A stretch of 64,000 bases of DNA, taken from positions 124,001 to 188,000 of the forward strand of contig NZ_CP139148.1 in assembly GCF_034058155.1 (NCBI RefSeq), given 5' to 3'. The notes below the pieces were generated by a model. It saw only the letters and a list, made by a program, of their open reading frames with translations. It made no database searches and was not told the DNA's origin. How positions within the stretch are numbered: the stretch's first letter is position 1; every line of letters starts with the position of its first letter. The DNA comes from Flavobacterium sp. KACC 22761 (GTDB lineage: Bacteria; Bacteroidota; Bacteroidia; Flavobacteriales; Flavobacteriaceae). This document shows positions 14,065 to 32,053 of this stretch, piece by piece. The translations under genes were made by a program, and so were the position numbers.

Positions 14065-16110
14065 TTAATTAAAACTATTTTTAAAATTCGAAACTCCACT
14101 TTGCAACCAAGCTAAATAATCCTCAATATCAGGATTATATGCCGAAGTTTCATTCAAGGTTTCGCCTTCATTATTTACCAATACATAAAAAGGCTGTGCA
14201 TTGGTTTTGTATGTAACGGTTTGGAATTCACTCCATTTCTGCCCGATATATTTTATTTTTTTTCCTGTCAATTCAGAAACTACTTGTTCGTTTTGAGGCA
14301 ATTCTCTTTTATCATCAACATAAAGTGAAATCAAGACAACATCTTCTTTCAAAACTTTAAGCACTTTTTGGTCAGACCAAACATTATCTTCCATTTTTCG
14401 GCAATTTACGCAGGCATGTCCTGTAAAATCGATCATTACTGGCTTGCGCATTTTTTTGGCGTAGGCCATTCCTAAATCATAATCGGTAAAAGCGATAATG
14501 TTATGCGGACCAAATTCTGCTCCTTCCGGCAATTTTGCAGTCAATTCGTCTGAATTTGCTCCTAAACCACTCGGAATTTCACTGTAATTCAACGGTGGCG
14601 GAAAACCACTGATTAATTTTAAAGGCGCTCCCCAAATACCCGGAATCAAATAAATGGTGAACGATAAAACAACAATTCCGAGACTCAATCTTCCGACGCT
14701 GATATGCGATAACGGACTGTCGTGCGGCAACTGAATTTTTCCAAACAAATACAAACTCAGCACTGCGAAAATCGCAATCCAGATAGCTAAAAATGTTTCT
14801 CTTTCCAGCCAATGCAATTGCAAAACCAAATCGGCATTAGATAAAAATTTAAAGGCTAAAGCCAATTCTAAAAAGCCTAAAAACACTTTTACTGAATTCA
14901 ACCATCCACCCGATTTTGGCAATGAATTCAGCCAACCGGGAAAAGCCGCGAAAAAAGTAAAAGGCAAAGCCAAAGCCAACGAAAACCCAAACATTCCCAC
15001 AAAAGGCGCAATCCCGCCTCTTGAAGCCGCTTCGACCAATAAAGTTCCTACGATTGGGCCTGTGCATGAAAACGAAACAATTGCCAAAGCCAAAGCCATA
15101 AACAAGATTCCGATAATTCCTCCTCGGTCTGCCTGACTGTCCACTTTATTTGCTAATGAATTTGGTAGCATGATTTCAAACGCTCCTAAAAATGACATGG
15201 CGAAAACCAATAAAAGCACGAAGAAAACCAAATTAAACCAAACATTAGTCGAAAGTGCATTCAGCGAATCGGCACCAAAAGCCCAAGTAACTACAGCACC
15301 AAGAAAAATATAAATCGTAATAATAAAGATTCCGTAAAAAACAGCTTTTCTAATTCCTTGTGATTTGGTTTTGCTTTGTTTCGTAAAAAAACTAACAGTC
15401 ATTGGAATCATCGGGAAAACGCACGGCGTAAGCAAAGCGGCAAAACCGGAGAAAAATGACAACATAAAAATCGTCCATAAACTATCTAATTCAGCTTTGC
15501 TTTTCTTTTTTGTAATGACTGGTTTTATGGCAGAATTTGATTCTTTTACAGTGATTGGTTCGGTCTGAACCTCATCGATTGCAGTTGAATCAGGCAATAT
15601 TCTTTCTGATTTTGCCTCAGAAACAATTTTCTCAACCGTTGCGACCGCTGTCGCAGATAGGCTCACAGAAAATTCTAGTTCATCATAACTTGGCGGAAGG
15701 CAATTTTCATCGTTACAAACCATATATTCAACCTCAGCTTTGATTTTAAAAGGTTTCTTTCCGATGCTTTTTATTCGTTGTCTAAATGTTGTTTCTTTTT
15801 CAAAAAACTTAATCGACATTTTAAAAACAGGATCATTGATCGTTTTTCCTTTTTCTTCTTTTACATTTCCGATCACATGAAAATCGGGGCTTTTAGTAAA
15901 AGTAAAATGAGTTGGAATAGGCCCTCCGTCTGAACCTTCTTGGCTATATAAATGCCAGCCAGCTTCTAAAGTCGCTTTTGCCTGCAATTCATATTCAGTA
16001 TCTGAAATTTTTTCGACACTGGTTTTCCACTTTATGGGAGTATAAATCTGAGCCTTTACCATTATTGTAAACAACAACAGCAGACTCACTAAAAATATGT
16101 TCTTGTTCAT
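14065..16110 (-). CDS. dsbD: Thiol:disulfide interchange protein DsbD
   Basis: 681 residues from MNKNIFLVSLLLLF (signal peptide). Moves electrons from cytosolic thioredoxin across the inner membrane to periplasmic thioredoxin-fold proteins. Three parts are seen: a periplasmic alpha domain (about 20-175) with the pair in MVCNDENCLPP; an eight-helix CcdA-like membrane domain (about 215-490) with TPCVFPMIPMTV and SCTGPIVG, which carry its two cysteines; and a C-terminal thioredoxin domain with CVNC in GHACVNCRKM. All three cysteine pairs are present, so it should be active. It lies 143 bases after the M16 protease gene at the end of the sigma-controlled locus and could recharge that locus's periplasmic thioredoxins. 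Confidence 0.9.
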   Translation of the reverse strand: MNKNIFLVSLLLLFTIMVKAQIYTPIKWKTSVEKISDTEYELQAKATLEAGWHLYSQEGSDGGPIPTHFTFTKSPDFHVIGNVKEEKGKTINDPVFKMSIKFFEKETTFRQRIKSIGKKPFKIKAEVEYMVCNDENCLPPSYDELEFSVSLSATAVATVEKIVSEAKSERILPDSTAIDEVQTEPITVKESNSAIKPVITKKKSKAELDSLWTIFMLSFFSGFAALLTPCVFPMIPMTVSFFTKQSKTKSQGIRKAVFYGIFIITIYIFLGAVVTWAFGADSLNALSTNVWFNLVFFVLLLVFAMSFLGAFEIMLPNSLANKVDSQADRGGIIGILFMALALAIVSFSCTGPIVGTLLVEAASRGGIAPFVGMFGFSLALALPFTFFAAFPGWLNSLPKSGGWLNSVKVFLGFLELALAFKFLSNADLVLQLHWLERETFLAIWIAIFAVLSLYLFGKIQLPHDSPLSHISVGRLSLGIVVLSFTIYLIPGIWGAPLKLISGFPPPLNYSEIPSGLGANSDELTAKLPEGAEFGPHNIIAFTDYDLGMAYAKKMRKPVMIDFTGHACVNCRKMEDNVWSDQKVLKVLKEDVVLISLYVDDKRELPQNEQVVSELTGKKIKYIGQKWSEFQTVTYKTNAQPFYVLVNNEGETLNETSAYNPDIEDYLAWLQSGVSNFKNSFN

Positions 16111-16253
16111 GAATATTTTTTTTAGAAAAGAGGGCTGAATAGCAAAAAACAACCCTCTCGTAAATTCCGATATTGCAATTAATAATGCTTACTAATTCAA
16201 AATATCAATTGATTACGGAAGTACAAATTAAATTCTGGTAAAAGGTTCTAAGA

Positions 16254-19070
16254 TTATTTCAATGGCTTAAAAACAACCTCCATAGCATCGGCTTTGTTTA
16301 AAAAAGAAGTGGCAAATTCCTGAATATCTTTTGCTGTAATGTTTTTTACGATATTTTCATAAGTTGCAGGATCATCCATATTGTATTTATTTTCAAAATA
16401 ATTATAGATTAGGTTCATGCTGTAGCTGTTAAAGTTTTTGCTGTCTTCTCTTGCTTTCAAATAATTTGTTCTAGTTTTCTCAATATCTTCCGAAGCGATT
16501 TCGCCTTTTTTGATTTTATCAATTTCCTGATAAACAATTGGCAGTAAATGTTCGACTTTATCTGCATCACAGTCAAAATTGATATTCATTTTTATTCTTG
16601 AAATTGGCAATTCCTCAAGACTTGCAATAACTTGTGCGCCATATGTTCCGCCTTCTTTTTCACGAAGACTTTCAGTATATCGCAACGTCAATATATCACC
16701 TAAGAAAGAAGCCAATATTTTGTTTTTATGGCTAAAAGCACATTCTTTCAAAAATCCTATCCTAACTGAACTTTTAGGCGTTTCCATTTTAATGAAAATA
16801 TCTTTGTCAATTTTACTTGAAACCCATTTTGGAACATCCTTTTTAAACTTCTCTTTTCGTTTAATACCGTTTATACTTGCAATATATTTTTCTAATAAAG
16901 GTTTTAAAACTTCTGGTGTAACATCTCCAACAATATAAAATTCAAAGCTTGAAACATCGGCAAAACGATCCAAATAGAAAGCTTTCATGTTCTCAAAAGA
17001 TAAATCATCAATGAATTGCTGGTTCATTATACGCACTTTTGGATTGTTTTTACCATAAATTGCAGAGGTCAAACTGTCTTTCATTTTAGATGAAATATCA
17101 TTTTCTCTGTTTTTTAAAGAATTCTGCATTCTCTGTTTCAACAAATCGTATTGGTCTTTATCAAATCTTGGTTTAACAAAACGTAAATGAACCAATTGCA
17201 TCATTGCTTCAATGTCTTTTACATTTGCAGACCCTGAAACTGCTTCTGTCAAATTATTTATATCTACAGAGATTCCTACAATTTTTCCTTTTAGTACTTT
17301 ATTTAACTCAACATTCGAAAATGCTGCTACTCCTGACATCATTGCCAGATTTGTTGTCGAAATTATTGAAGGCATATCTTTAGGATCATATAAAGATGAT
17401 CCTCCAAGACTAACGGCTTGCAACATAACTTCTTTTTTATTTTTATCAGCAAATTTATAATGCACTTTCACGCCGTTACTTAACGTAAACGTAGTCGCCC
17501 CTATTTCCTTAGTTTCTTTTTCAGCAACAATTTTACCTGGCTTTAAATCCGTATCGTCCATTAGTGATTTAGTCACAAAAGTATCTGCGTACGGCTGCAA
17601 TGAAGCATCGTTTTCTGCTTTCTGAATGATATCAAATGCTTTTTCCTGCATTAAATTTTCTTCGCCTTCTACACCTGTAACCGTTACAACACGGTTTTCT
17701 TTTGTGTATAATTTTGAAATTTGTTCCTGAAGAATTTTGCTGTCAATATTTTTCAAAATGCTTTTTGTCATTTCAAATTCTACCGTAGGATCAGCAATTA
17801 CTTCGTGGTTCAAATAATCATCTTTCACCATTCCGATTACTTGTTTATGCGAAATCTCATTTATTTTTTCCAAATAATTTTCGTAACCAGAAATAGTTTC
17901 TTTAGCGGCTCTTTCGATTTCTCCGGTTGAAAAACCAAATTTATACGCACGAACCCATTCATTCATTACAGCTGTAAAAGCTTCAGCTTGTTTTCCTGGT
18001 TTTGGCAAAACGCTCAAAATCCAGACATCATTCAAACGAGTATAATTTTGATAGCCAATTTGTGCGCCTTTAAATGGGCATTCTTGTTTTTGTGCCATTT
18101 CTGACAAACGATTGTTCAAAATTGAAAAAGCAATACTTCTTTGGGTCGATTTTTCTAAATCGGCATACGTATTCGTTGTTTTTTCAGCTTTATGACGAAT
18201 CATTAAACTGATATTTGAAGCTGAAATTTCTTTATCCAAAGCCAATTTGAAAGTTGGTTCTGCTCTTTCTGGAATCGCAATTTCAAAACGCTTTTTAGGA
18301 TTTACTGGCGACGGAATATCAGCAAAAAGTTTTTTGATTTTCGCTTCAACTTCATCTGAATTAATATCTCCAACAATAGCGATTGCCTGCAAATCTGGAC
18401 GATACCAATCTTTATAAAAATCTTTTAACGCCTGATATTTGAAGTTTTTAATAATTTCCATATCGCCAATCGGCATGCGGTCTGCATAAAGCGAATTGTT
18501 GTAATAATATGGCGCCAACTGATTGTAAATTCTGGCGCGAGCATTTTGCCTTGTGCGCCATTCTTCGGTAATTACGCCACGCTCAGCATCGATTTCTTCA
18601 TTCGTCAGAGACAAAAAATTTGACCAATCATGCAAAACCAATAAACAAGTGTCGACAACTCCACCATCTTTTGACGGAATATTATCCAAATTGTAAACTG
18701 TTTCATCTGTGCTTGTGTAAGCATTGATGTTTTTTCCGAAAACGGCACCTTGCTTCTGAAGCGTATTCAAAATGCCTTTTCCTTCAAAATGTTTGGTTCC
18801 GTTAAACGCCATATGCTCCAGAAAATGCGCCAGTCCTTTCTGCTGGTCGTTTTCTAAAATCGACCCAACATTCTGAATAATATAATAACTTGCCGTATTT
18901 TTATTGACATCTGTCGGGTAAATATAATACGTCATTCCGTTTGGAAGAACCCCTTTTTTTATTTTTTGGTTGACTGCAATTGGGTCTGCAGATTTAAAAT
19001 TCTGCGCTTTCGCGGATGAGAAACACCCAACGATGAATAATAAAATTGATATTTTTTTGCTGTACTTCAT
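16254..19070 (-). CDS. M16-family zinc metallopeptidase (two-domain, exported)
   Basis: 938 residues. Signal peptide MKYSKKISILLFIVGCFSSAKAQ is visible. The inverted zinc motif HxxEH is intact at residues 82-86 (AHFLEHMAFNG), and two M16 halves make a pqqL-like clamshell of usual length. Such enzymes close around peptides or small proteins and cut them. In the Fus/PqqL systems of proteobacteria an M16 protease degrades substrate brought in by a TonB-dependent receptor, which fits a SusC/SusD gene pair upstream here. The gene begins 11 bases after the TlpA gene and is probably the last gene of the operon proper. Confidence 0.9.
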   Translation of the reverse strand: MKYSKKISILLFIVGCFSSAKAQNFKSADPIAVNQKIKKGVLPNGMTYYIYPTDVNKNTASYYIIQNVGSILENDQQKGLAHFLEHMAFNGTKHFEGKGILNTLQKQGAVFGKNINAYTSTDETVYNLDNIPSKDGGVVDTCLLVLHDWSNFLSLTNEEIDAERGVITEEWRTRQNARARIYNQLAPYYYNNSLYADRMPIGDMEIIKNFKYQALKDFYKDWYRPDLQAIAIVGDINSDEVEAKIKKLFADIPSPVNPKKRFEIAIPERAEPTFKLALDKEISASNISLMIRHKAEKTTNTYADLEKSTQRSIAFSILNNRLSEMAQKQECPFKGAQIGYQNYTRLNDVWILSVLPKPGKQAEAFTAVMNEWVRAYKFGFSTGEIERAAKETISGYENYLEKINEISHKQVIGMVKDDYLNHEVIADPTVEFEMTKSILKNIDSKILQEQISKLYTKENRVVTVTGVEGEENLMQEKAFDIIQKAENDASLQPYADTFVTKSLMDDTDLKPGKIVAEKETKEIGATTFTLSNGVKVHYKFADKNKKEVMLQAVSLGGSSLYDPKDMPSIISTTNLAMMSGVAAFSNVELNKVLKGKIVGISVDINNLTEAVSGSANVKDIEAMMQLVHLRFVKPRFDKDQYDLLKQRMQNSLKNRENDISSKMKDSLTSAIYGKNNPKVRIMNQQFIDDLSFENMKAFYLDRFADVSSFEFYIVGDVTPEVLKPLLEKYIASINGIKRKEKFKKDVPKWVSSKIDKDIFIKMETPKSSVRIGFLKECAFSHKNKILASFLGDILTLRYTESLREKEGGTYGAQVIASLEELPISRIKMNINFDCDADKVEHLLPIVYQEIDKIKKGEIASEDIEKTRTNYLKAREDSKNFNSYSMNLIYNYFENKYNMDDPATYENIVKNITAKDIQEFATSFLNKADAMEVVFKPLK

Positions 19071-19081
19071 AAAGCTGCTAA

Positions 19082-20464
19082 TTAACCTTTCAATAATTTA
19101 TCCAACTGCACTCTTAATTCTGGATTTGACGGACGAAACGCATCGGCATTGATGATGTTTCCTTTTGTGTCAAACAATAAAAATCTCGGAATCGCATTTA
19201 CATCGTAATTTTTAGCTACATCAGAACCAAAATCTTTATCAGCCATTAACTGAATTCCTTTTAATTGTTCTTTTGTAACAAAGTCTTTCCATTTTTGAGC
19301 GTCTTTTGGTTTATCCAATGAAAGGCTTACAAAAACAATATTTTTTCCGTGATAATCTTCCTCGATTTTTTTCATGTGTGGAATCTCTGCTTTACAAGGC
19401 CCGCACCAAGTTGCCCATAAATCAATGTACACAAATTTCCCTTTGAAATCTGAAAAAGAAACAGGTTTATCGTTTATGTCATTATAAGTAAAATCCAATC
19501 CTTTTTGCCCCACATTTTTATGAAGGACTTTTTCGTATTCTAATAAAAATGCTTTACTCGCGTCAGAAATCATAAAAGGTTTAATGCTCGGCGCAATTTT
19601 TTCGTATTCTTCAATTTTCATTCTTGAAGTTGCCACTTCTTCACGAAGATATGCATCCTTTAAAGCTGAATCTGTAATATGAGTAATTGATTCTGTTAAA
19701 TCCAAACGCTTTGGTTTCTCACCACCATTAATGCTTACATAGAAAAAATAATTTGTCATCAAAGAAACTCCATTCGCTAATTTTAACAAATCTGGATCTG
19801 TAAATTTCTTGTCTGTCATCCAAGTTTTAATTACTGCTGGACGATCGTCTTTGTCTGGAAACACAGATCTTGGCATTCTAAAAAAAGTATAAGTAAGTTC
19901 TTCAACATCTGTCGCTACAGCCAATTTTAATAATTTATTGAAATTCGCATCTTTTGTTTTAATTGATTTCGAAAATTCATCTGCTTTGGCAATACCTTTA
20001 TCAATAAACGGATAAAATTCTACATACGATACATTTTCACCCAAACGTGCAAAAGGCGCAAATTCGTTGTAGATTTCGTTTGCTTTTTGCACCAAAGCAT
20101 TTTGTCCGATATTCTTTCCGCTTAAAACGTAATTTGTTTTATTGATTACCAGATTTAAGTCTAGTTTAGGTTCTAAAAACAAACGAATTAATTGGTTTCT
20201 ACTTTTCATTTGACCGTAATCTACATAATAAAAGCCAGCAGCTGAAACTGGTGTCATAAAGCCGAATTCCCCCAGCGAATTAACTTTTGCGGTAGCAGCA
20301 ACGACTGGCTTTCCATCTTCAACATTGTAAAGCGTAATTTCTTTTGTTTTTAAATCTGGAATCGAGATTGTTCCTCTAATAACTGCATATTCTGAAAGGT
20401 TTGCAGCAAAACTCATTTGAACCGTGATGAAGGTCAAAATGAAATAAAAAATGTGTTTTTTCAT
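19082..20464 (-). CDS. TlpA-like thioredoxin-family protein, exported
   Basis: 460 residues with a signal peptide (MKKHIFYFILTFITVQMSFA). An N-terminal beta-rich DUF4369-like region (about 25-110) and a helical linker precede a C-terminal TlpA/redoxin domain (about 320-455) with WATWCGPCKAEIPHMKKIE; both cysteines of CGPC and the cis-Pro region (AIPRFLLF) are present. It would reduce or rearrange disulfides in the periplasm. It sits between the aspartyl protease (26-base gap) and the M16 protease (11-base gap) in one transcript. Confidence 0.85.
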   Translation of the reverse strand: MKKHIFYFILTFITVQMSFAANLSEYAVIRGTISIPDLKTKEITLYNVEDGKPVVAATAKVNSLGEFGFMTPVSAAGFYYVDYGQMKSRNQLIRLFLEPKLDLNLVINKTNYVLSGKNIGQNALVQKANEIYNEFAPFARLGENVSYVEFYPFIDKGIAKADEFSKSIKTKDANFNKLLKLAVATDVEELTYTFFRMPRSVFPDKDDRPAVIKTWMTDKKFTDPDLLKLANGVSLMTNYFFYVSINGGEKPKRLDLTESITHITDSALKDAYLREEVATSRMKIEEYEKIAPSIKPFMISDASKAFLLEYEKVLHKNVGQKGLDFTYNDINDKPVSFSDFKGKFVYIDLWATWCGPCKAEIPHMKKIEEDYHGKNIVFVSLSLDKPKDAQKWKDFVTKEQLKGIQLMADKDFGSDVAKNYDVNAIPRFLLFDTKGNIINADAFRPSNPELRVQLDKLLKG

Positions 20465-20490: not shown

Positions 20491-21966
20491 TTAAATTGAA
20501 ATTTGCATCGATTGATCGCCTTGCTCGATGATGAAATCTTTGGTTTCTTTACTCTCTTTTAGCTTTTTAAGATTTTCTGGATTCAATAAATCTTTGGCTT
20601 CAAAATCATTGATTTGAATGACCTTGGCTCCCTCTTTTACTTTCTTTAAATCTTCATTTTGCTGATCTATAATTCTTTTTACTATCAGGTTTTGATTTTC
20701 GTCAAAATCTAAATTCATTCCTCCTAAATAGAAAGAGGACATTTTTTTGAAATTTTTATTGGGTTCCAGATAAACTGTTTTATGCAAAAGATCAATGGTA
20801 AAATTGAAACGTTTGATCAAATCGATTCCCAGAGAACCATCGGCGAAAGCCCAGCTTTTATTGGCTTCGTCATATTCCTGAAGCGCGATGGTTACATTTG
20901 GGAAATTATTTCCGTTAATGGCAATATTCGGAATCGCGCCACCGACAATTTTGGTTTGTTTTCCTAAACTATAATTCACCGAAGTATATTCTGTTTTTAG
21001 ACTTGCTTCGAGATTATTTTTATGATTGAAGGGGCCGTAACCAATTAAATCGTAACCTGCTCCAGTATCAAAAGTGAAATTGCCTTCGACTGATTTTTTG
21101 TCTTCAAAAGTCAGATTCATTTTTACTACCGGAAGTCCCGATTTATAATCAAAAACCATAGGTTTTGCTTTTCCCCAATACTTAAAATCTCCAAAATTGT
21201 ATAAATCAATTGTCATTGTATCAAAATTGACTGATGTGATATAATTGCGAAGCAAATTGGCACCAAATAATCCATCATAAACGCCGTGTTTTGGAAAAAT
21301 GACCAAACCTTGATTTTTCAAAACCTGATCACCAATGTAAATCGTATTATCTGCCGAATATTGCACTTGCTGACTTCCGCCAACCACCGAAGCCGATTTA
21401 TTTTTCGTCACTACAACTCCAGCTTTGTATGCGCTATCAGGATTCAACGCCATTCCGTCTGCGCCTGTGTCAAAAAGCATTAAAAACTCGCGATCGGCTT
21501 TGTTTAGTTTTATTTTAATGGCAATTCCGTTTTCAACAATTTCAAACGGAATACTGGCTACTTCTTTTACTTCAGCATTTCTGTCGACTTTGTACAAACC
21601 ATCAAAAAACGTCACATACAAGATTTTGTTCTCTGAATTGAAAACAATTTGGGTTGGCTTTTTCTCTTTCCCTTTGAAACAAAAATCAGCCAAAACAAAA
21701 GTTTCATTTTTGATTTTCGCCGATTTTCCGATTTGAATCGAATCTAAAACCGGAAAAGCTTTGAAAATACTGTTAAGGTAAAATTCGTTTGACGAAGAAT
21801 CTCCCACACCAACTGTAAATTCTGACGCTAAAAGATTTTTGATGCTCGTATAATCTTTTTGCTGAAAAGCTTGTTCAAACGCTTTTACGCTTTCTTGAAC
21901 ACTCTTTTTTTGCCCATAATTGATATAGCACGAAATTGTCAGTGCGAATACAACTAACTTTTTCAT
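20491..21966 (-). CDS. Exported aspartyl protease with two DTG motifs and PDZ-like end
   Basis: 491 residues from MKKLVVFALTISCYINYGQ (signal peptide); an ATG 51 bases upstream only adds an unlikely leader. An N-terminal NTF2-like region (about 20-125) is followed by a retropepsin-like domain. Two catalytic-type motifs are seen, FDTGADG at 165-171 and FDTGAGY at 299-305, so one chain may form a bilobal pepsin-like active site instead of a dimer. A C-terminal PDZ-like segment (about 410-490, VKEGAKVIQINDFEAKDL) could bind peptide ends. It starts 1 base after the thioredoxin stop, so the genes are tightly coupled. Related clan AA proteins of Bacteroidetes are largely uncharacterised. Confidence 0.8.
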   Translation of the reverse strand: MKKLVVFALTISCYINYGQKKSVQESVKAFEQAFQQKDYTSIKNLLASEFTVGVGDSSSNEFYLNSIFKAFPVLDSIQIGKSAKIKNETFVLADFCFKGKEKKPTQIVFNSENKILYVTFFDGLYKVDRNAEVKEVASIPFEIVENGIAIKIKLNKADREFLMLFDTGADGMALNPDSAYKAGVVVTKNKSASVVGGSQQVQYSADNTIYIGDQVLKNQGLVIFPKHGVYDGLFGANLLRNYITSVNFDTMTIDLYNFGDFKYWGKAKPMVFDYKSGLPVVKMNLTFEDKKSVEGNFTFDTGAGYDLIGYGPFNHKNNLEASLKTEYTSVNYSLGKQTKIVGGAIPNIAINGNNFPNVTIALQEYDEANKSWAFADGSLGIDLIKRFNFTIDLLHKTVYLEPNKNFKKMSSFYLGGMNLDFDENQNLIVKRIIDQQNEDLKKVKEGAKVIQINDFEAKDLLNPENLKKLKESKETKDFIIEQGDQSMQISI

Positions 21967-21967
21967 T

Positions 21968-22905: not shown

Positions 22906-24381
22906 TTATCTAGTACGATAAGCAACATCAACAATTTTACATAAACCAGAGTAACTATAGTCAAGTACTAAATTTCCGTTTACAGGAGGAACTGTAAATA
23001 ATTCTAATTTGCCCGTTGTACCATAGCTTCCAACGATTAATTTTTTAGTATATAATTTATTGGCTCTTGCATTACAATCCAGATAAGTGATTTCTTCACT
23101 GCCTTTGTCCAGCATTAATTTTGCAGACTGAGTTCCGTTGTCATACTCGTATAGTTTTCCTCCAACAGCATAAAACAAGTAACCAGAATCTGGACTTACA
23201 GCAAATTTTGTGGCTTTATCAATATCTGGTGCATTTAGGATTTCTTTATAATAAGTCTGTGCCAAGGCTGTATTAAATCTCAAAAGATGGAATTTTCCAG
23301 TTGTAACATTCTTCAGAACTGCAAAATTCTCGAATGAATTAAAGTTTGAGGTTGTCATATATACCAAATCACAATTGGTATTATTCCAATCTAAAACAGT
23401 TGGAGATCCCGTTAACGGAGGCATTGCAGAACAATTTCCTTTTGAAAAGCTATAACGGACAAAACGACGATTATTTTGATCATAAAAAATAGGAGGACCG
23501 GCAATTGTTCCTCGGTTTTCTGCAATAAAAGGTGCAGCATAGAAAGGTTTTGTCTCGATATCTAAAATATTTTGAGGCAAGCCATATCTAATTTGATTTG
23601 ATCTCACATAACAATAAATATTTCCTTTACTATAAATAATATTTTCTGCTGGTGCAGCAGATTTCATAAAATCAACACCAAAATTGGTTTCAAAAGCTCC
23701 GCCAACACTTTCATAAGCGATATTTTGAGATTCTGTCCAAGCAAAAGAATCTGGTTCTAATCGAGCGGTGCCTGTTTCTGTGGCAGTAACATAAATTCCG
23801 TAAGCGGTAGAAGTCGAAAGCGCTGATCCAAAACATTCTACATCAACAGCTTTTCCACTCAATTTTAAAGCCGAGCCTGCAGCATCTAAAACGTCTGTAA
23901 TAACTCGTGTAGTACCATTTGGAATTATAGAAACCATATCTAATCTCGCTTTTCCATCAACATCACCAACTACCATCCAGCCTTCATAAATAGCCGAAAC
24001 TACATTTAACGTAAAATACTTCTGTTGCCAAGTAACTCCGGTAACTTTATCGGTAATTAAATAATAAACCTGATATTTTGCAGGCGGTAACTTTATTATG
24101 GCATCAATATCTTTTGATGTACTTATAATGTTTCTGGCGCTACCTAACGCCACCCATTGGAATGTATAACGATCAGGATCTGATCCATCATCTTTGGTTG
24201 GGTTCAAATCTGGAGAAAGCTTAAAACGTTCCCCTGTATAAACGGTATACTCTTCTTGTATTCCCGTTACATTTAAAGTATTGATCTCAGTATAATTATA
24301 ATTTCCCTCATCACTTACACAACTATTTGCCACAGTAATCAAAAGCAGTAAAGCGATTTTTATTTGTATCTTTTTAATCAT
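22906..24381 (-). CDS. PKD-like family lipoprotein of a SusCD locus
   Basis: 491 residues with lipobox VANSC at the end of the signal peptide (Cys21) and acidic residues right after it (CVSDEGN), a pattern associated with surface export of Bacteroidetes lipoproteins. A PKD/Ig-like N-terminal region (about 35-130, YTVYTGERFKLSPDLNP) is followed by a beta-propeller-like remainder. Such proteins accompany DUF4843 and SusCD in many Bacteroidetes and probably bind substrate at the cell surface. Distances to neighbours are 33 and 65 bases, same strand. Confidence 0.75.
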   Translation of the reverse strand: MIKKIQIKIALLLLITVANSCVSDEGNYNYTEINTLNVTGIQEEYTVYTGERFKLSPDLNPTKDDGSDPDRYTFQWVALGSARNIISTSKDIDAIIKLPPAKYQVYYLITDKVTGVTWQQKYFTLNVVSAIYEGWMVVGDVDGKARLDMVSIIPNGTTRVITDVLDAAGSALKLSGKAVDVECFGSALSTSTAYGIYVTATETGTARLEPDSFAWTESQNIAYESVGGAFETNFGVDFMKSAAPAENIIYSKGNIYCYVRSNQIRYGLPQNILDIETKPFYAAPFIAENRGTIAGPPIFYDQNNRRFVRYSFSKGNCSAMPPLTGSPTVLDWNNTNCDLVYMTTSNFNSFENFAVLKNVTTGKFHLLRFNTALAQTYYKEILNAPDIDKATKFAVSPDSGYLFYAVGGKLYEYDNGTQSAKLMLDKGSEEITYLDCNARANKLYTKKLIVGSYGTTGKLELFTVPPVNGNLVLDYSYSGLCKIVDVAYRTR

Positions 24382-24414: not shown

Positions 24415-25185
24415 TTATAGAACGTACATTTCGGTACCATCTTCTTCGTAAATCGTATTTCCAGATTTCTTCTGATCAGCCAGATAACGTTTCATAAAAT
24501 TTTGATAATACACTACATCTGGAACTGTAAGTCCTGGCGAACCCAGTTTCTGTGCAAACATTTCTGGCTTCAAATCCATTAATTCGCACATCAAAAAGAA
24601 TTTTTTGGCAGTAAAAGGTCCCAAATAAGCTGCAAACCATCCTGGAGGCTGCGTTAATTTGTCATCAAAAGTTATTTTAAATCGAATAAAACTCATGGTT
24701 TTCTTTGTAATTGCATTCACTACTTTTGTTTGCATTTTTGTGGTAAACCATTCATTTTCTTCCAGATTCAAAACCAAGGTGTACTGCTTGGTTTTCATGT
24801 CTGGAGTTCTAAAAAAGGGAACATCTACGGTATCAACTCGTCTTCCTGCATGAAGGTAAATTTCTTTAGGAAGTGTAAAATGTGTCCCTTCAATTGCTGT
24901 ACTTGATGGATCTACGGTAAGTTTTACTTTTCTATCTACATCACTTAATTTTCCCTGAACCCTAATCGGAATTTTAAAAATTCTTCCTGTAATAGTTGAT
25001 TTATCTAAACTGAAGCTAAATCCTGTACTGTCACGAACAGGTTCACTAATTCCATTGGGAGCATACAAAGCATTAGAAAAATAAATATTATCCGTGTCTT
25101 GGTAAGTTGCAATTTCTTCTTTCTCACAAGATGTAAATCCTAAAAAAGAAACGAAGATTATACTTAAAATCAATATCTTATTCAT
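24415..25185 (-). CDS. DUF4843 lipoprotein
   Basis: 256 residues with lipobox GFTSC (Cys20) and the acidic tail CEKEE that suggests surface export. The first part has a Calx-beta-like strand pattern (FSFSLDKSTITGRIFKIPIRV, STAIEGTHFTLPKE), the second the helical end typical of DUF4843 proteins. It is an accessory surface component of the SusCD system; the substrate is unknown. It starts 15 bases after susD. Confidence 0.8.
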   Translation of the reverse strand: MNKILILSIIFVSFLGFTSCEKEEIATYQDTDNIYFSNALYAPNGISEPVRDSTGFSFSLDKSTITGRIFKIPIRVQGKLSDVDRKVKLTVDPSSTAIEGTHFTLPKEIYLHAGRRVDTVDVPFFRTPDMKTKQYTLVLNLEENEWFTTKMQTKVVNAITKKTMSFIRFKITFDDKLTQPPGWFAAYLGPFTAKKFFLMCELMDLKPEMFAQKLGSPGLTVPDVVYYQNFMKRYLADQKKSGNTIYEEDGTEMYVL

Positions 25186-25200: not shown

Positions 25201-26646
25201 TTATTGAAAGTTAATTTCAGAATCCGGCATTGGAACTACATATTGAACAGCGCTCATGGTCACATTTCCAGAAGTCGCAGAGCCGTTTGGAATTGCCGTA
25301 GAGTTGATTCTTTTGTAATAGAAAAACAACTGCCCTTCGCCAATAAATTCTTTTTTATATTCTTTAGTAACTTCAGTTGTTAAAACTGCTGTTGCGGCTA
25401 AATTCGTCAGACCTCTGTTAAAGCGAAGTGTGTTCAAATAAGAAATTCCAGTTGCAGGAACCGTTGAGGTTTCAGCTGCGATTAAATACATTTCTGAAAG
25501 TTTAAACATCGGAATCTGAAAACGAAACACTTTAGTCTTATCTGTAACATCTTCATATTTGTAGAATGTTTTCTGCGTTTTTCCTCCCACAATTGGAATT
25601 TTCCAGCTTGGAAGACTTCTATAATCGTTATCATTTGATTCAAAAACGGCATTGATTCTGACCAATAACGGAGCATATATTTTATCATCGGCCAAACTAG
25701 AATCGAATAAATCTTTTTGTTTGGTATATAAAGTATAATCACTAATCGAGAAGAAATTTTCTGAAAAAAAAATACGATCTGGATTTGCGGCATTTGTAGC
25801 TTCTAAAAATGGAGTCCAAGGAAATAGCGTATTTGATTTCGTAAAGTTTATCACTTCATTTGCGATTGTTGAAGCACCTGTTTTATCGCCAGCATACAAA
25901 AGAACACGTGCTTTTAAGCATTTTACTGCCAAATAATTCATTCTATTTCCTCTATTTACAGAATAATACGTATTGCCATCAAAAGCTCCTGAACCTATAT
26001 ATTTTCCAGTTGTCAAAATCGGGTCATTTGCTAAAAGAACTAAAGCCTGATCTAAATCAGCAAGCACTTTTACAATTACATCTTTAGCTGGAAGAATTGG
26101 ATTATTGGTTGGTGCATATTTATCATAATAAGGTATTCCTGGATCAGCGGGAGCAACTTTATAGATAGGCCCATATAGACGAAGCATATCAAAATGAAGC
26201 ATCGCACGAATCGCAATCGCCTCACCTTTTAGCATATCGGCTTTTTCGGCAGAAATTACTCCAGCATGTTCGTCTATACTTTCCAGAAATTTATTAGCTG
26301 ATAAAATAGTTGTAAATGCTGTTTCCCAAATATTCGAAAATGTAGTTTTGGCTACTTTTTCCGCATAAGCATAAGTTGAAATCTGCGCTTTATCAGGGTA
26401 TGAAGTCATATTATACTGCTGTCCCAAAATCTCAACTGCATCCATAGTCAACTGTTTACCATAAAGATTATTAGAAGCTAATTGCAGATAAAGACCATTA
26501 TGCACATTCTGAACTCCTTTCTCCGAATTGTACAACTGAGATTCTAAGATTTTGTCCTGAGGTACCACGTCTAGAAAATCACTACAGCCAACAGCTGTAA
26601 AAGATACTATAAGAAGGAATGAAATTTTATTTAAATACTTTTTCAT
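25201..26646 (-). CDS. SusD/RagB-family surface lipoprotein
   Basis: 481 residues with lipobox AVGC and acidic residues following (CSDFLDVVPQDKI), the standard SusD start. The helical TPR-like fold is seen in LKARVLLYAGDKTGASTIANE, and the C-terminal KLSEMYLIAAETS segment is characteristic. SusD lids the SusC barrel and captures ligand. It begins 5 bases after the susC stop. Its partner carries an STN domain, so the ligand is probably sensed by the sigma system upstream. Confidence 0.9.
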   Translation of the reverse strand: MKKYLNKISFLLIVSFTAVGCSDFLDVVPQDKILESQLYNSEKGVQNVHNGLYLQLASNNLYGKQLTMDAVEILGQQYNMTSYPDKAQISTYAYAEKVAKTTFSNIWETAFTTILSANKFLESIDEHAGVISAEKADMLKGEAIAIRAMLHFDMLRLYGPIYKVAPADPGIPYYDKYAPTNNPILPAKDVIVKVLADLDQALVLLANDPILTTGKYIGSGAFDGNTYYSVNRGNRMNYLAVKCLKARVLLYAGDKTGASTIANEVINFTKSNTLFPWTPFLEATNAANPDRIFFSENFFSISDYTLYTKQKDLFDSSLADDKIYAPLLVRINAVFESNDNDYRSLPSWKIPIVGGKTQKTFYKYEDVTDKTKVFRFQIPMFKLSEMYLIAAETSTVPATGISYLNTLRFNRGLTNLAATAVLTTEVTKEYKKEFIGEGQLFFYYKRINSTAIPNGSATSGNVTMSAVQYVVPMPDSEINFQ

Positions 26647-26651
26647 ACTAA

Positions 26652-29600
26652 TTAAAATGATAAGTTTAAACTAAGTGAATAAATTCTTGAAAAAGGATAA
26701 TCGATACCTCGTTCTGCTTTGATAGAAGACAATAAGAAAAATTCATTTGCGAATACATTAAGTCCTAATCCTGTTAGTCCTGCTCTTTTTAGCCAAGCTC
26801 TATCGGTTACTCGATATCCTAAACGAATCGACTCTCCTGCGATATAATCGTCTTTTTGAATAAAACGAGAGGATATTGGGGTTTCATTTGTTAAACCAAT
26901 AGCTTTGAATTGTGCTTCTTGTCCTGGTGTTGTCCAACGATCTGTAAAAGCTCTAACATCTTGATTTTCAAAAATACTTTGCTTAGAAATATTCTCTACT
27001 TTGTTGTATAATGCTGTATTGAATCGCTCTGCGCCAAAACTGTATCGTACAAATAATCCGAAGCTAAAGCCCTTATACGTCACGTTTGTAGAAACAACTC
27101 CTGTAGCAGTCTCTCTCGAATTCCCCATTACAACCTCATCTTTTTTGTCTAATGTAAAAGTCGATTGTCCATTTTTCTTCAAGAAAACTTCTCTACCTGT
27201 TGCAGGATCGATTCCTAATGAAGGAACAGCCCAAAGATCGTTGCTGCTCGCTCCATCATAATAACGAGTAAGACTTGATGTTTTTTGAGCAGCGTCATTT
27301 AAAGAAGAAAGCGCATTATTGAAACCACCTAATTTATTACCGCCTGAAGCTCCCATTATACCAACGCCCCAGATAAAATTCTTTTGAAGATTATAAATAA
27401 AGTTGTAGTTCACTTTCCACTCGATACCTTCTGTATCTAAATAACCAACATTTAACGGATATGAATTTACTCCTGTTGAAGCCGCTAAGTTTATAGCAAC
27501 AATTTGTGGAGAAGTTTTACGTTTGTAAGCACCTAATGTTGCTGTCAGTCTGTTTCTGAACATCCCCAAATCTAATCCAACAGATAAATCTTTGGTTCTT
27601 TGTGGTTCTAAATTTGGATTTGCCAATTGAGAAACGGCTAATCCTGGGCCAAAAACATTAGTATTAATATTATAAGTATAAACATCATAAGAAGCAAAGC
27701 CTAATAAATTTTGGTTTCCTGTCTGCCCTATGTTTCCACGAAGTTTTAAAATATTGACAATGTTTTCATTCATTTTGAACTCATTGTTGATATTCCATCC
27801 CAAACCTACGCCCCAATATGGAGAATATTTTTTGTTGGTTCCAAAATTGGTTGCTCCCGACATTGTCTGTGTAAAATCAAACAAATATTTCCTGTCGTAA
27901 GCATAGTTGATTTGATTGGTTAAATCAACGTTTCGAATTAATTGAGTATATACTTGAGGTTTTCCGTTTGCCTCATATCCAAAAGCAAATGCTGGGTTTC
28001 CTTCAACACCCAATGGAAATCCTCTCAAAGTGGTACTAAAAGCATTATTTGTGGTTTCTGATGCAGAAGCTCTAATAGTGTAATTGAAAGAATGCACATT
28101 TCCAAAAACATTAGAATAAGTAGCTCCCAAATTAGCATTCCATTTATCAGTAATTGCCTCATTTTTGAAATATGATCCTTTTTCCGTCGCAATATTGCTA
28201 ATATATCTAGTATCGTCTGGTGATACAAAAACAGTTGAAATTGTACTGTTTCTAGATACCGATAAAGCTCCCGTCGTTTTAAGATGCGGATTTATGTCAT
28301 AATTAATAGCAAAGTTATTGGTAAAATTGAAGGCATTTGATTTATCATAACTTCCCAAGAAAACATTGTAAAGCGGATTTGCTGCTTGATTTACCACAAT
28401 ATTTTTTTGCTCCAATGGAAATGAAGAACCGTCCAAATAGCGTGTTATAACTCCGTCTTTATTATATTTTGGATAATACGGACTTACTTTTGCCCAAGTT
28501 TCAAAAGAACCATAAGGAGATTCTTGATTATCTCCTCCAGAAACAAAAAATTGATTATTAATACTCAATTTATTTTTGCGGTAAGTTAATGTTGTATTAT
28601 ATCCCCAGGTATTATGCTCAGTTCCTTTCATAGTTCCTGTAAGCTTTTTATAATTGCCTGCGATATTAAATCTGAATTCATCACTTCCTCCACCAAAATT
28701 CAAACTGTGTCCAGATGTAATCCCCATTTGGATTGGCTCATTTAACCAATATGTATCAATTCCGCTACGCACACCTGCTAAACGTCTTTGATATTCTTTT
28801 TGTACTTTAAAGTCAAATTCAGAAGCAGGATTAGAAGTAGTATATACTCCAGAAAGTCTCTCAAACTCAAGTTTTTGTTCAGCATTCATTAAATGATAAA
28901 CACTTAAATCTGCTACTTCATAAGAAGAATTATAAACATAATTGAACTGCAATTGTCCAGGCAGAGGTTTATTAGTTTCGATAACTACAACACCGTTCGC
29001 AGAACGAGAACCGTACAATGCCGTTGAAGCGGCGTCTTTTAATAAAGTGATGCTCGCAATTCTGTTGATATCTAAATCGACAACTTGCTGCAAAGTTGTT
29101 GGAAATCCGTCCAAAATAAACAACGGTTGATTTGGATCGTCCCTAAATTGGCTGTCAACTTGATTGGCTGTTAAACTTGTCTGCCCTCTCACCTCGATTG
29201 TTGGCAGAATATTCGGGTTCGAACCTGCAATATTGTTATTGACAACAATAAAAGATGGATCTAGTGTTTTTAAAGCCTGAACTGCATTTTGAGTCGAAAT
29301 TTGTCTTAATTCTTCTCCTCTAAAAGTCGTTACCGCACCAGTTATCAATTCTTTTTTACGAACTGTAACTCCAGTATTTACCACAACCCCTTCAAGTTCT
29401 TTTCGTTCTTCCTGAAGTTTAACGTTGATTACTTTTCTCTTATTAACCTCAACAATTTGTGCTCGATGGCCAACATAAGTAAATAAAATCTGTCCATCTT
29501 CTGGAGCTGTAATAGTATACCTTCCGTCAAAATCAGTTTGAACGGCTGTTTTTGTACCTTTTACAATTATGTTTACGCCCGGAAGCGGTTCATTTTTATC

Positions 29601-30029
29601 ATTGGTAACGATACCTTTGATTTCAATAGATTTGGATTGCAGTACTACAACTTTCTCAGCTGGTATTTCTTTTACTAAAATTATATTTCCATTCGTAAAG
29701 CTGAAATTGAAATTTTTGCTTGGAAAACTGGCTTCCAGTAAATCATTTACCTTGATTTTACCCTTTTTCAAATGTACTTTTGGCAATTTCTTGAATAAAT
29801 CTTCCTGATAAATAAAAGTGTAGTCTGTTTGTTGTTTGATAATGTCAAAAACTTCATCAACAGTTACCGTTTTATCGGTTGCAATTACAATTTTTGTGTT
29901 TTGTGAAAATAAATTTGCGGGAGAAAAACCAAAAATTGCAGTACAAAACAAGAATATAAAAGTTCTCATAATGTTAATAATTAGCCGTTTTCTAATATAG
30001 AAAATAGCACTGGTTAATTTAAATTTCAT
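26652..30029 (-). CDS. SusC/RagA TonB-dependent transporter with STN signalling domain
   Basis: 1125 residues from the start at 30029. An internal ATG at 29969 begins the hydrophobic signal (MRTFIFLFCTAIFGF), but the longer start resembles the extended leader of other Flavobacterial SusC. Order of domains: STN (about 55-115, TVDEVFDIIKQQTDYTFIYQ), carboxypeptidase-like beta domain (ITVKGTKTAV-like turn at about 155), plug (about 220-350, DGFPTTLQQVVDLDINRIAS) and barrel. The STN domain contacts FecR and turns ligand binding into a sigma-factor signal. Followed by susD after 5 bases. The SusC of the xylose locus has no STN, so the two systems are regulated differently. Confidence 0.92.
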   Translation of the reverse strand: MKFKLTSAIFYIRKRLIINIMRTFIFLFCTAIFGFSPANLFSQNTKIVIATDKTVTVDEVFDIIKQQTDYTFIYQEDLFKKLPKVHLKKGKIKVNDLLEASFPSKNFNFSFTNGNIILVKEIPAEKVVVLQSKSIEIKGIVTNDKNEPLPGVNIIVKGTKTAVQTDFDGRYTITAPEDGQILFTYVGHRAQIVEVNKRKVINVKLQEERKELEGVVVNTGVTVRKKELITGAVTTFRGEELRQISTQNAVQALKTLDPSFIVVNNNIAGSNPNILPTIEVRGQTSLTANQVDSQFRDDPNQPLFILDGFPTTLQQVVDLDINRIASITLLKDAASTALYGSRSANGVVVIETNKPLPGQLQFNYVYNSSYEVADLSVYHLMNAEQKLEFERLSGVYTTSNPASEFDFKVQKEYQRRLAGVRSGIDTYWLNEPIQMGITSGHSLNFGGGSDEFRFNIAGNYKKLTGTMKGTEHNTWGYNTTLTYRKNKLSINNQFFVSGGDNQESPYGSFETWAKVSPYYPKYNKDGVITRYLDGSSFPLEQKNIVVNQAANPLYNVFLGSYDKSNAFNFTNNFAINYDINPHLKTTGALSVSRNSTISTVFVSPDDTRYISNIATEKGSYFKNEAITDKWNANLGATYSNVFGNVHSFNYTIRASASETTNNAFSTTLRGFPLGVEGNPAFAFGYEANGKPQVYTQLIRNVDLTNQINYAYDRKYLFDFTQTMSGATNFGTNKKYSPYWGVGLGWNINNEFKMNENIVNILKLRGNIGQTGNQNLLGFASYDVYTYNINTNVFGPGLAVSQLANPNLEPQRTKDLSVGLDLGMFRNRLTATLGAYKRKTSPQIVAINLAASTGVNSYPLNVGYLDTEGIEWKVNYNFIYNLQKNFIWGVGIMGASGGNKLGGFNNALSSLNDAAQKTSSLTRYYDGASSNDLWAVPSLGIDPATGREVFLKKNGQSTFTLDKKDEVVMGNSRETATGVVSTNVTYKGFSFGLFVRYSFGAERFNTALYNKVENISKQSIFENQDVRAFTDRWTTPGQEAQFKAIGLTNETPISSRFIQKDDYIAGESIRLGYRVTDRAWLKRAGLTGLGLNVFANEFFLLSSIKAERGIDYPFSRIYSLSLNLSF

Positions 30030-30140
30030 AAATTTACATGTTAATTGGTTGGTTGGTTTTAAAACTGATTAATTGATTAATACACAGAAAGGGATGAAGT
30101 GCGGTACGGTGAGAGGTCTGAACTTTAATCCCTTTTCTTT

Positions 30141-31289
30141 TTATTTTATTATAATCTTATTGTCTTTTTTCTCATAGGCATTAATGAAATTAATATTCTT
30201 GATCGTGGTTAATATGTCTTCTAATTTTTGATTTTTATTCAAAACACCATTAAATCTTACGTTTCCTAGAGCAGGATCTGCAAACTCAATATCAACATCA
30301 TACCATCTAGACAATACTTTTGCGATATCTTTAAGTGGCATTCCTTTAAAAACAAACAATCCTTTTCTCCAAGAAATTTCGTTGTACACATCAACTTCAG
30401 AAATTGAAATACTTCCGTTAGAACCACTAATTCTAGATTGTTGGTCTGGAGCCAAAATTTCTTTATTACTGGAATTGCTCACAGCAACTTTCCCTTTTAC
30501 CAATGTGGTATAAATTGTCGTTTCGTCTTTGTAGGCCTTAATATTAAATTCGGTTCCAATAACTTCAACATTCTGTCCTTGAGTTTTGACTTTAAATTTT
30601 GAGCCTTTATGTTTTGTACTTGGCGAAACTTCAAAATAAGCTTCTCCGTAAACCAATTCCACTTGTCTGATTTCGCCATCCACAAAAGCAACAGGATATT
30701 TTAATTGTGATTCTGAGTTCAGCCAAACTTTTGTACTATCGGCCAATTGAACAAAAAACTGTCCTCCTCTTGGAATCGTTAAAAAATTATTTGCGATCGC
30801 GGCAGTTTTGCCATCTTTTGAATTGTAGATTAATTTCTCGCCATTACTAGAAACATTTCCTTGACTATAGGATTCTCCCCTTTTCAATTCGATAACAGAA
30901 CCGTCTTCTAATGTCAATGTTGCTTTATCGCTTCCAATCAAAATATTTTTATGAGCAACAACTGGAATATTTTGTCTTGTATTTTTTCCTGTATGGAATA
31001 AAAGCGAAATTGAAATCAGCATCGCCACTGAAGCCGCAACCGCAACTTTAAAACTTGTTCTAGAATAAAATGGCCTTAGCGGAATAATTTTTGTTTCTTC
31101 AGACTTTATTGTCCTCTGAATCCGATTCAGCATTTTATTCTGAATTTCTTCTTTTGATCCTAACGCATCATCCCATTCTTCTGAAGTTTGAAAACTTTCG
31201 TAAAAATGCAACAACTGCTTATTCTCCTCCCGATTCGTATCGCCAGAAAGATATCTGTTTAATAACGTTAAGAATTCTTCTTTTTTCAT
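30141..31289 (-). CDS. FecR-family anti-sigma factor
   Basis: 382 residues. The N-terminal cytosolic segment (1-79) binds the sigma factor, a single membrane helix lies at about 80-100 (FKVAVAASVAMLISISLLFH), the FecR beta domain spans about 115-290, and a DUF4974/STN-like C-terminal domain follows (GMPLKDIAKVLSRWYDVDIEF). It links the STN domain of the outer-membrane SusC to the ECF sigma factor, one gene upstream. Spacing is 173 bases from the sigma gene and 111 from susC, where extra promoters could lie. Confidence 0.9.
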   Translation of the reverse strand: MKKEEFLTLLNRYLSGDTNREENKQLLHFYESFQTSEEWDDALGSKEEIQNKMLNRIQRTIKSEETKIIPLRPFYSRTSFKVAVAASVAMLISISLLFHTGKNTRQNIPVVAHKNILIGSDKATLTLEDGSVIELKRGESYSQGNVSSNGEKLIYNSKDGKTAAIANNFLTIPRGGQFFVQLADSTKVWLNSESQLKYPVAFVDGEIRQVELVYGEAYFEVSPSTKHKGSKFKVKTQGQNVEVIGTEFNIKAYKDETTIYTTLVKGKVAVSNSSNKEILAPDQQSRISGSNGSISISEVDVYNEISWRKGLFVFKGMPLKDIAKVLSRWYDVDIEFADPALGNVRFNGVLNKNQKLEDILTTIKNINFINAYEKKDNKIIIK

Positions 31290-31462
31290 TTTTTTTATTA
31301 TTAATGCAGGAGTATATTAGGTAAGTATCTAAAAAGACATTTACCCCCTAGTCCAAATTCTATTTTTTTTTGATTTTTTTTATCCTTTTAAGAAAAACCT
31401 CGCCAGAAACCAGAAAATTCAACGCTTTAGGCTTATAATCGGCAAACATTTTTTGTTTTCTT

Positions 31463-32053
31463 TTAAAGATTTTCAGAAAGCCATAAAATCATCGCCGCGC
31501 CCAATGAGCTTCCCATCGACAAACGAATCGTTTGAAGTGCTTTTGTAATGTGATTTTCGACTGTTTTGATTGAAATATTCAAACGCTCAGCAATTTCTTT
31601 ATGACTAAGCTGTTCTTCGCGACTCAGTTTATAAACAGCCTGACATTTTTCGGGAAGTGCCTCAATAATCAAATTAAGTTGTTGCACTAATTCTTCATGC
31701 ATCAACTGTGTTTCGGGCGTTGTATATTGAAAACGTTTTTCTAAATCATCAAAAAGCTCGACCTTGATTTTGTCTTTATTCTTTTTTAAATGATTAAAAA
31801 CTTGGTAACGTGCACAAGCATACATATAGCCTTTTAAAGAAATGTGGATTTCTAATTTTTCGCGATTGTGCCAAATGTTCATGAAGATATCCTGAATAAT
31901 ATCTTCGCACAATTCTTTATCTTTTATGATATTATAAGCCGAAATAAAAAGTGCCTGCCAAAAGGTATTGTACAATTCCGTCAACGCCGATTCATCTCCG
32001 GAGCGAAGACGATCAATTAAAATCTTATCTTGATTTGAGGATAACGATTGCAA
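31463..32053 (-). CDS. ECF sigma-70 factor, FecI-like
   Basis: 196 residues with region 2 (about 20-90, DIIQDIFMNIWHNREKLEI) and region 4 (about 125-180, QLSHKEIAERLNISIKTVEN). It directs RNA polymerase to the promoters of the downstream FecR-SusCD-protease genes when released by FecR. The C-terminal GAAMILWLSE extension is hydrophobic, as in several Bacteroidetes members. It is the first gene of the locus. Confidence 0.9.
   Translation of the reverse strand: MQSLSSNQDKILIDRLRSGDESALTELYNTFWQALFISAYNIIKDKELCEDIIQDIFMNIWHNREKLEIHISLKGYMYACARYQVFNHLKKNKDKIKVELFDDLEKRFQYTTPETQLMHEELVQQLNLIIEALPEKCQAVYKLSREEQLSHKEIAERLNISIKTVENHITKALQTIRLSMGSSLGAAMILWLSENL

Follow-up and report, generated by a model that had tools for sequence, protein, structure and literature searches.

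The window analysed here, a 64,000-nucleotide stretch of Flavobacterium sp. KACC 22761 (positions 124,001 to 188,000 of contig NZ_CP139148.1, in a 5.04-Mb genome of a single contig), carries a minus-strand cluster of 11 genes around a SusC-SusD (SusCD) pair. The genes follow each other in the order sigma factor, FecR, SusC, SusD, DUF4843, PKD_2, thioredoxin (Trx), aspartyl protease (AspP), TlpA and M16, and then DsbD. We found that the plug and barrel of SusC, together with SusD and the DUF4843 and PKD lipoproteins, behave as a single allelic block with little coupling to the remainder of the locus, which is a new observation. The signalling region of SusC goes with FecR, and the enzymes go with the backbone, by which we mean the flanking genes of the locus and not a whole-genome species tree. 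The gene content suggests that the locus is probably an importer of peptide or protein with periplasmic proteolysis.

All 11 genes were confirmed at the positions given below by Pfam and NCBIfam profiles, in agreement with the gene list of an earlier reading made from the letters of the window (the sequence-only reading). The features are as follows.

31463..32053, minus strand: ECF-type sigma factor (TIGR02985, 143 bits against a cut-off of 126.4).
30141..31289, minus strand: FecR anti-sigma protein with FecR_C (Pfam).
30086..30138, minus strand: conserved, hairpin-capable fecR-susC leader, from the comparison of loci.
29625..30029, minus strand: STN-like N-terminal signalling region of SusC (weak Pfam STN match; co-evolves with FecR).
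26652..29624, minus strand: carboxypeptidase-regulatory-like domain, plug and barrel of SusC (TIGR04056, 508 bits against a cut-off of 368).
About 29430, minus strand: start of the swapped block within SusC, at about residue 200.
25201..26646, minus strand: SusD lipoprotein, in the swapped block (SusD-like_3, 57 bits against a cut-off of 27).
24415..25185, minus strand: DUF4843 lipoprotein with a predicted Calx-beta/Ig-like domain, in the swapped block.
22906..24381, minus strand: PKD_2 lipoprotein with a predicted Ig-like domain and beta-propeller, end of the swapped block.
22856..22886, minus strand: PKD-trx hairpin with both-side changes in 3 pairs, at the boundary of the surface and periplasmic halves.
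21968..22840, minus strand: thioredoxin with CMPC (Pfam), signal peptide judged by eye.
20491..22017, minus strand: NTF2-like, double-DTG aspartyl protease and PDZ protein; likely start at about 21966.
19082..20464, minus strand: TlpA-like thioredoxin (TlpA/AhpC-TSA, Pfam) with CGPC.
16254..19070, minus strand: M16 metalloprotease (Pfam) with two C lobes, of PqqL-like length.
16128..16159, minus strand: terminator-like hairpin with T run just ahead of dsbD, both-side changes in 3 pairs.
14065..16152, minus strand: DsbD (Pfam); likely start at about 16110.

Protein distances were compared over the window and 33 other loci (34 loci; one, L113, was left out). Distances of SusC, SusD, DUF4843 and PKD correlated mutually with r of 0.60 to 0.85, and those of the block against FecR, AspP, TlpA, M16 and DsbD gave r of 0.06 to 0.26. 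FecR and DsbD, which lie at opposite ends of the cluster, correlated with r of 0.83, and AspP with TlpA with r of 0.87. In sliding windows, one boundary fell at SusC residues ~100-300 and the other between PKD and Trx: residues 1-130 of SusC follow FecR (r 0.68, vs. 0.22 with SusD) and residues 221-1125 follow SusD (r 0.84, vs. 0.08 with FecR). The STN domain that the sequence-only reading had placed on SusC is a weak Pfam match (17.5 bits, cut-off 28.4), but its evolution is tied to FecR. Mantel permutations gave a within-block p of 0.0002, and several weak block-backbone values were nominally significant (0.0006 to 0.05); the uncoupling of block from backbone is strong but incomplete. The nearest neighbour by FecR and DsbD was the nearest by the block in 5 of the 34 loci and the nearest by AspP and TlpA in 11; as even the latter agree so seldom, the backbone has been reshuffled too. 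An average-linkage cut at 0.15 separated ten SusC groups.

The same break can be seen at the DNA level. The nearest locus in the backbone, L096 of F. zhairuonense, is 92 to 95% identical to the window over the sigma and FecR genes and 91 to 95% below DsbD, and identity over SusC from the plug onward, SusD, DUF4843 and PKD drops to 65 to 77%. L088 and L105, which are more distant, are 72 to 85% identical in the sigma, FecR and DsbD genes and 80 to 90% in the block. TlpA is a mosaic too, with 91 to 94% identity to L088 and L105, as is the C-terminal half of M16, with 90 to 96% identity to L095 and 71 to 83% to the other five, except for L093 in one bin. In the pair L084 vs. L085, identity is 99% in the backbone, 98% in AspP/TlpA and 69% in the block.

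Controls were run in 14 own-genus genomes, with orthologs taken as best matches and the neighbouring genes known from the source genome alone. There, against FecR plus DsbD, the block gave r of 0.04 to 0.10, AspP 0.71 and TlpA 0.70. Another FecR/STN SusCD locus, present in 8 of the 13 other genomes, kept the signal (barrel 0.61, SusD 0.81), a xylan-type SusC at 54494-57568 of the window (7 of the 13 others, 8 genomes) was intermediate with r of 0.46, and an alpha-glucan SusCD locus (8 of 13) lost it (barrel 0.22, SusD 0.10), its STN region following its own FecR at 0.91. The xylan-type label comes from the neighbour genes: the second SusCD locus of the window used as control (50252-61464) has a SASA esterase, an aldose epimerase, a transaldolase and a weak xylose-isomerase-like match. 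The alpha-glucan control, from the source genome (L236:4474-15404), has GH97, an alpha-amylase, SusE, FecR and STN. Because this locus exchanges its alleles as well, swapping was rejected as a peptide-specific trait; some SusCD loci show it, divided in a similar way into signalling and transporter parts, and others do not.

We infer from these patterns that the swap reflects between-species recombination at one locus, and old balanced alleles may be an alternative. Under recombination, the surface complex would be exchanged between species as one block, and generic periplasmic enzymes would process any arrival. Given such exchange, the peptides that are read, or the attackers that are avoided, probably differ from strain to strain. 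That the strongly swapped parts are just those expected at the surface would also suit envelope defence or detoxification: the cluster would take up antimicrobial peptides, reduce and cut them, and swapping of the surface block would offer an escape from phages or toxins that have it as their receptor. However, TonB-driven import of a poison would be costly, induction through sigma and FecR suits nutrients equally, and the alpha-glucan locus swaps as well, so that we regard a defence role as improbable.

The proteins of the block have features of a surface complex. The lipobox cysteine of SusD, DUF4843 and PKD is kept in 34/34 loci (residue checks cover the window and 33 other Flavobacterium loci), and the residues after it are mostly SDF, KEE/QEE and SDE-like. 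These are close to the surface-export signals SDDFE and C-X-K-(D/E)2-X given in PMC5080379, which supports a surface complex. The PKD lipoprotein is mostly a predicted beta-propeller, with Bacteroides surface lipoproteins including BtuG2 as best fold matches. Neither phmmer nor profile searches linked PKD or DUF4843 significantly to solved chains such as BT2261/BT2262, and these two were likewise not among the fold rows listed for PKD and DUF4843, which is not evidence of difference. Among solved chains, SusC is nearest to 8aa4 (E 7.6e-50) and then to 5t3r, both SusC homologs whose cargo the listing leaves out; RagA (2.9e-39) and BT2264 (3.6e-14) rank below both. SusC, SusD and the DUF4843 and PKD/propeller lipoproteins may form one outer-membrane complex that would capture oligopeptides or small proteins for TonB-driven import, and the STN-like region of SusC would report occupancy to FecR and the sigma factor. 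The regulatory part of the sequence-only reading was upheld to the extent that sigma and FecR genes lie upstream and are profile-confirmed.

The enzymes of the periplasmic half appear intact. Both the CxxC of Trx and the WCGPC of TlpA are kept in 34/34 loci, as are the first and the second DTG of AspP, the HFLEH of M16 with its downstream glutamate, and the six cysteines of DsbD, in line with the earlier claim of intact motifs (CMPC, double DTG, CGPC, HxxEH and the DsbD cysteines). The N-terminus of AspP is NTF2-like and its C-terminus carries a PDZ domain, both weak profile matches (E about 1e-4), and judged from orthologs the real start of AspP lies ~50 bp inside the listed open reading frame (ORF). 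The M16 protease is of PqqL type (6ofs, E 4.1e-70), its nearest solved chain is 9ldy, and its signal peptide was judged by eye. In the periplasm, the thioredoxin and TlpA would hold thiols in the reduced state or break disulfide bonds in the chains that arrive, the double-DTG/PDZ and M16 proteases would cut the imported chains, and DsbD could supply the thioredoxins with electrons.

Within Flavobacterium the whole cluster is conserved. All 11 genes occur in the same order in 13/13 own-genus loci fetched, and a scan of named genomes gave 39 loci (29 scored complete by script), 34 of them from Flavobacterium and overlapping in genomes with the 13. M16 and DsbD are present in 33 of these 34, L113 being without both. 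The sigma gene is found in all 13 fetched loci and in the scan is missing only at stretch edges (L091, L110, L112); L101 is complete and has an extra SusC match downstream. The co-conservation of SusCD with thioredoxins and proteases that the sequence-only reading had named as a check is borne out by these counts. With AspP as anchor, an ortholog of at least 73% identity was found in 12 of 150 own-genus genomes, own included. The AspP genome search, which scored the best few candidates per genome, found it in 4 of 395 genomes of a phylum sample (E <= 1e-30, own included) and in 135 of 299 genomes of a family sample (E <= 1e-3), where near-full-length relatives besides the own one were found only in G021, G250 and G115 (two copies), at 31 to 40%.

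SusCD is mostly a glycan system, and the cluster could be an ordinary glycan locus whose enzymes lie elsewhere, with the thioredoxins and proteases as bystanders. Ig-like lipoproteins accompany glycan SusCD, and one related locus, L254, has a GH16 domain. A conserved glycan enzyme in the orthologous loci, which the sequence-only reading had named as evidence that would speak against it, was not found inside any of the 34 Flavobacterium clusters (ORF layout and Pfam scans of extra ORFs), and peptidases and thioredoxins recur in another family; a glycan locus is therefore improbable. Extra ORFs inside the cluster occur only in L085 (602 and 147 amino acids, aa) and L091 (159 aa), between tlpA and m16 (L085:12975-15238 and L091:12893-13372). 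The 602-aa lipoprotein-like protein has sub-threshold SprT-like and CBM_14 matches, and the small ORFs are without Pfam match.

Beyond Flavobacterium, the general part of the system is sigma, FecR, SusC, SusD, DUF4843 and the PKD_2 propeller, followed by thioredoxin-fold genes. Loci of Zhouia (G250/L118 and G021) and Aestuariibaculum (G115/L120) have SusC-SusD-DUF4843-PKD, Trx/TlpA genes, AspP and TlpA, and neither M16 nor DsbD was found in the stretches read; G115 additionally encodes a protein of 861 aa whose N-terminal domain is M60-like. The second AspP relative of G115 (L068) and the distant relatives L070-L072 have no surrounding SusCD cluster. A PKD_2 search of the phylum sample found 5 of 296 genomes, three of them own-genus. 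The other two hold five loci, in three of which (L076, L077, L078) the core is followed by a thioredoxin-fold gene; L080 has the core with ABC transporter genes in the thioredoxin place, and L079 is a PKD_2 match with a stop and no SusCD nearby. On the opposite strand of L077 there is, in addition, an M16-like gene of 410 aa.

In the family of one such genome PKD_2 was found in 37 of 151 genomes (E <= 1e-15). We read the best 20 of 60 ranked loci, excluding those read previously; none of the 20 had any part in building the profiles. The six-gene core was present in 18/20 (L247 is cut by a contig end and L239 is without a FecR match), and in L248 SusC is split over two ORFs. The gene adjoining PKD was thioredoxin-fold in 15/20, and 18/20, all but L244 and L258, had such a gene within the run that continues from PKD on the same strand, allowing for gaps of up to 250 bp. 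In these loci together with L066, L067 and L069, CxxC was present in 47/47 labelled thioredoxin-fold proteins and two catalytic-loop motifs in 11/11 aspartyl proteases, one being DSG (L242) and one DAG (L069). A peptidase lay in the run in 12 of the 20 loci, of the double-DTG type in 8, with a trypsin-PDZ protein in L249, two Met-zincins in L252 and M60 in L253 and L255; L247 adds a trypsin-like peptidase, and in L240 a DPP-IV type S9 peptidase lies 633 bp past the end of the run. All 15 unlabelled run genes were scanned, the non-peptidases being ExbD, an ABC pair, a tRNA-modifying transferase, a dienelactone-hydrolase-like protein, two ClpB-like ATPases, a phosphoesterase and a GDPD-GH16 fusion. 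As unrelated peptidase families take the same slot, protein or peptide cargo best explains these loci. An ABC transporter pair (ABC_tran with ABC2 membrane/ABC_transp_aux) replaces or accompanies the enzyme genes in L080, L244, L133 and L136, twice with M16.

M16 and DsbD are a Flavobacteriaceae addition in the samples covered. The membership that the sequence-only reading had given them holds for Flavobacterium and is not general; neither was matched in the 20 other-family PKD_2 loci or in the Zhouia and Aestuariibaculum stretches. The pair was rejected as a general module for want of a match in the 20 loci and retained for Flavobacterium. Anchoring on M16 gave 67 matches in 59 of 247 genomes (E <= 1e-120), and 60 of the 64 loci outside the own cluster were fetched, omitting two of G503, one of G495 and that of G496; some of the stretches end at contig ends, and L170 gave no M16 label. 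SusC, SusD and M16 lie on one strand in 10/60 (L126, L129, L131, L132, L133, L134, L135, L136, L155 and L166), all of the same family and eight of the same genus. Four of the 10 have TlpA and two (L129, L155) DsbD, and L124 has TlpA-M16-DsbD without SusCD. Between SusD and M16 lie an S9 peptidase (L126, L131, L132), a serine-hydrolase-like protein (L129) or an ABC transporter pair (L133, L136). M16 alone was rejected as a marker, the other 50 of the 60 loci being without a same-strand SusC-SusD pair.

The PqqL-type match of M16 raises iron or cofactor piracy as in Fus/PqqL, in which a metal-bearing protein or peptide is imported and M16 frees the metal. Fus-like systems also combine a TonB transporter with an M16 protease (PMC6793856). 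The transporter here is, however, a SusC with a SusD lid and not FusA-like, and M16 is outside the general system, which makes piracy unlikely, though slightly less so than a defence role or a glycan locus.

Two intergenic hairpins were recognised by comparison; the terminator scan did not list either of them. The M16-dsbD hairpin has 9 pairs and a T run. Its pairing over 33 distinct rows is 99.3%, against 25 to 75% in slid controls; 3 pairs have changed on both sides, and the hairpin ends ~17 bp before the likely dsbD start. In the PKD-trx hairpin of 11 pairs, pairing is 97.4% (17 to 49% in slid controls), 3 pairs have likewise changed on both sides, and two rows have gaps. In the fecR-susC leader 98.3% of cells are paired and no pair changed on both sides; given this lack of covariation, the leader may act as promoter DNA instead of RNA. 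No Rfam family matched at gathering thresholds, and a sigma-70 promoter scan (67 sites vs. 66.4 expected) was uninformative. Across the 34 loci, median intergenic gaps range from 6 to 33 bp, save for four larger ones: ~158 bp before fecR (31 loci), 112 before susC, 72 before trx and 140 before dsbD. The one tight run followed by DsbD of the sequence-only reading was right in that the run ends at M16, but a conserved hairpin with T run separates DsbD. The surface and periplasmic halves are probably expressed at different levels, and dsbD would be expressed by read-through or from its own promoter, with the M16-dsbD hairpin as a possible attenuator.

The most constant enzymes of these loci are encoded by thioredoxin-fold genes (18/20 other-family loci), the source genome has two DsbD_TM genes, one in the cluster and the other at 2.83 Mb, and DsbD recurs with SusCD and M16 in L129 and L155. 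These points would fit an import of disulfide-bonded peptides or small proteins in which reduction by Trx, TlpA and DsbD is obligatory before the proteases act, an account that overlaps with peptide import as such. Against it, no DsbD match was found in the 20 other-family loci, a hairpin lies ahead of dsbD, and periplasmic thioredoxins have many other roles. We hold an obligatory reduction step to be possible, and a good deal less likely than peptide import itself. Of the earlier proposal of protein or peptide import of disulfide-bonded cargo, the import is supported by the co-conserved SusCD, thioredoxins and peptidases and by the absence of a glycan enzyme, and the disulfide-bonded cargo is solely inferred.

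Several observations weigh against peptide or protein import. The alpha-glucan SusCD locus swaps alleles, so that swapping is no mark of peptide cargo; with 8aa4 and 5t3r above RagA and BT2264, the SusC sequence leaves the cargo undecided; and DUF4843-like and propeller folds are also found in proteins labelled carbohydrate-binding or B12-binding. L244 and L080 have ABC transporter genes instead of thioredoxins and L258 has neither, the thioredoxin-linkage counts are for PKD_2 loci and not for SusCD loci at large, and the GDPD-GH16 fusion in the run of L254 is the sole glycosidase domain among the 20 loci. In addition, 50 of 60 other M16 genes were without a same-strand SusC-SusD pair in the stretch read.

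Ribonucleotide reductase genes lie upstream of the cluster and end in a terminator-like site (32431-32455). Their large and small subunits are at 32462-35143, and a large-subunit match adjoins sigma in L053, L057 and L058. Directly after dsbD, on the same strand, lies a second, non-SusC TonB-dependent receptor (12066-14099), which among the loci of the named-genome scan was labelled only in L096 (98%) and is therefore outside the conserved cluster.

Among known systems, the closest appear to be RagAB/BT2261-64 for the transporter, the F. collinsii loci for the locus type, and Fus/PqqL for the idea of import with M16. Oligopeptide ligands are reported for RagAB of Porphyromonas gingivalis and BT2261-2264 of Bacteroides thetaiotaomicron in PMC7782687, and PMC11817032 gives four ragAB alleles and discusses horizontal transfer. 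The SusC barrel with a SusD lid is shared with these; the present locus differs from them in its sigma/FecR/STN relay, in the DUF4843 and PKD-propeller lipoproteins, and in having its own dedicated thioredoxins and proteases. In the same genus, F. collinsii has SusCD loci with adjoining peptidases (TRV642_0198-0209 and others), predicted for oligopeptides, but the peptidases named there are S9, S37, M24 and M43, and neither "thioredoxin" nor "M16" occurs in the main text (PMC10132118). Like Fus and YddB-PqqL, the cluster joins a TonB transporter with an M16 protease, here with HxxEH intact; unlike here, the Fus transporter is FusA-type, Fus is described for Proteobacteria, and the text of PMC6793856 has 0 occurrences of thioredoxin. 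Judged from its SusC/RagA-type receptor, the cluster is not a member of the Fus/PqqL systems. The fold match of the propeller lipoprotein next to a TonB transporter recalls the BtuB-BtuG B12 complexes of Bacteroides (PMC10404256), but the cargo differs. The sequence-only reading knew of no described system with this exact set; the set was not found in the listed open-licence PMC titles and abstract starts either, but peptidase-bearing SusCD loci have already been published (PMC10132118).

We tentatively propose, as a possibility that falls somewhat short of probable, a widespread new class of Bacteroidota loci for reductive peptide import, in which the core is followed by thioredoxins and an interchangeable peptidase. 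The surface half would be an exchangeable cassette, with breakpoints between signalling domain and plug and just after the PKD gene, so that import could be changed without rewiring regulation or processing.

For many SusCD pairs that lack glycan enzymes no cargo has been assigned, and in F. collinsii a large share of the 29 SusCD pairs is listed as Unknown (PMC10132118). The core with thioredoxins and variable peptidases would give a rule for spotting peptide importers of Bacteroidota and make the cargo question testable, and the allelic block suggests which proteins form one outer-membrane machine. A receptor that can be exchanged while sensing and processing stay would matter for niche change and for attacks by phages and toxins that act through the receptor.

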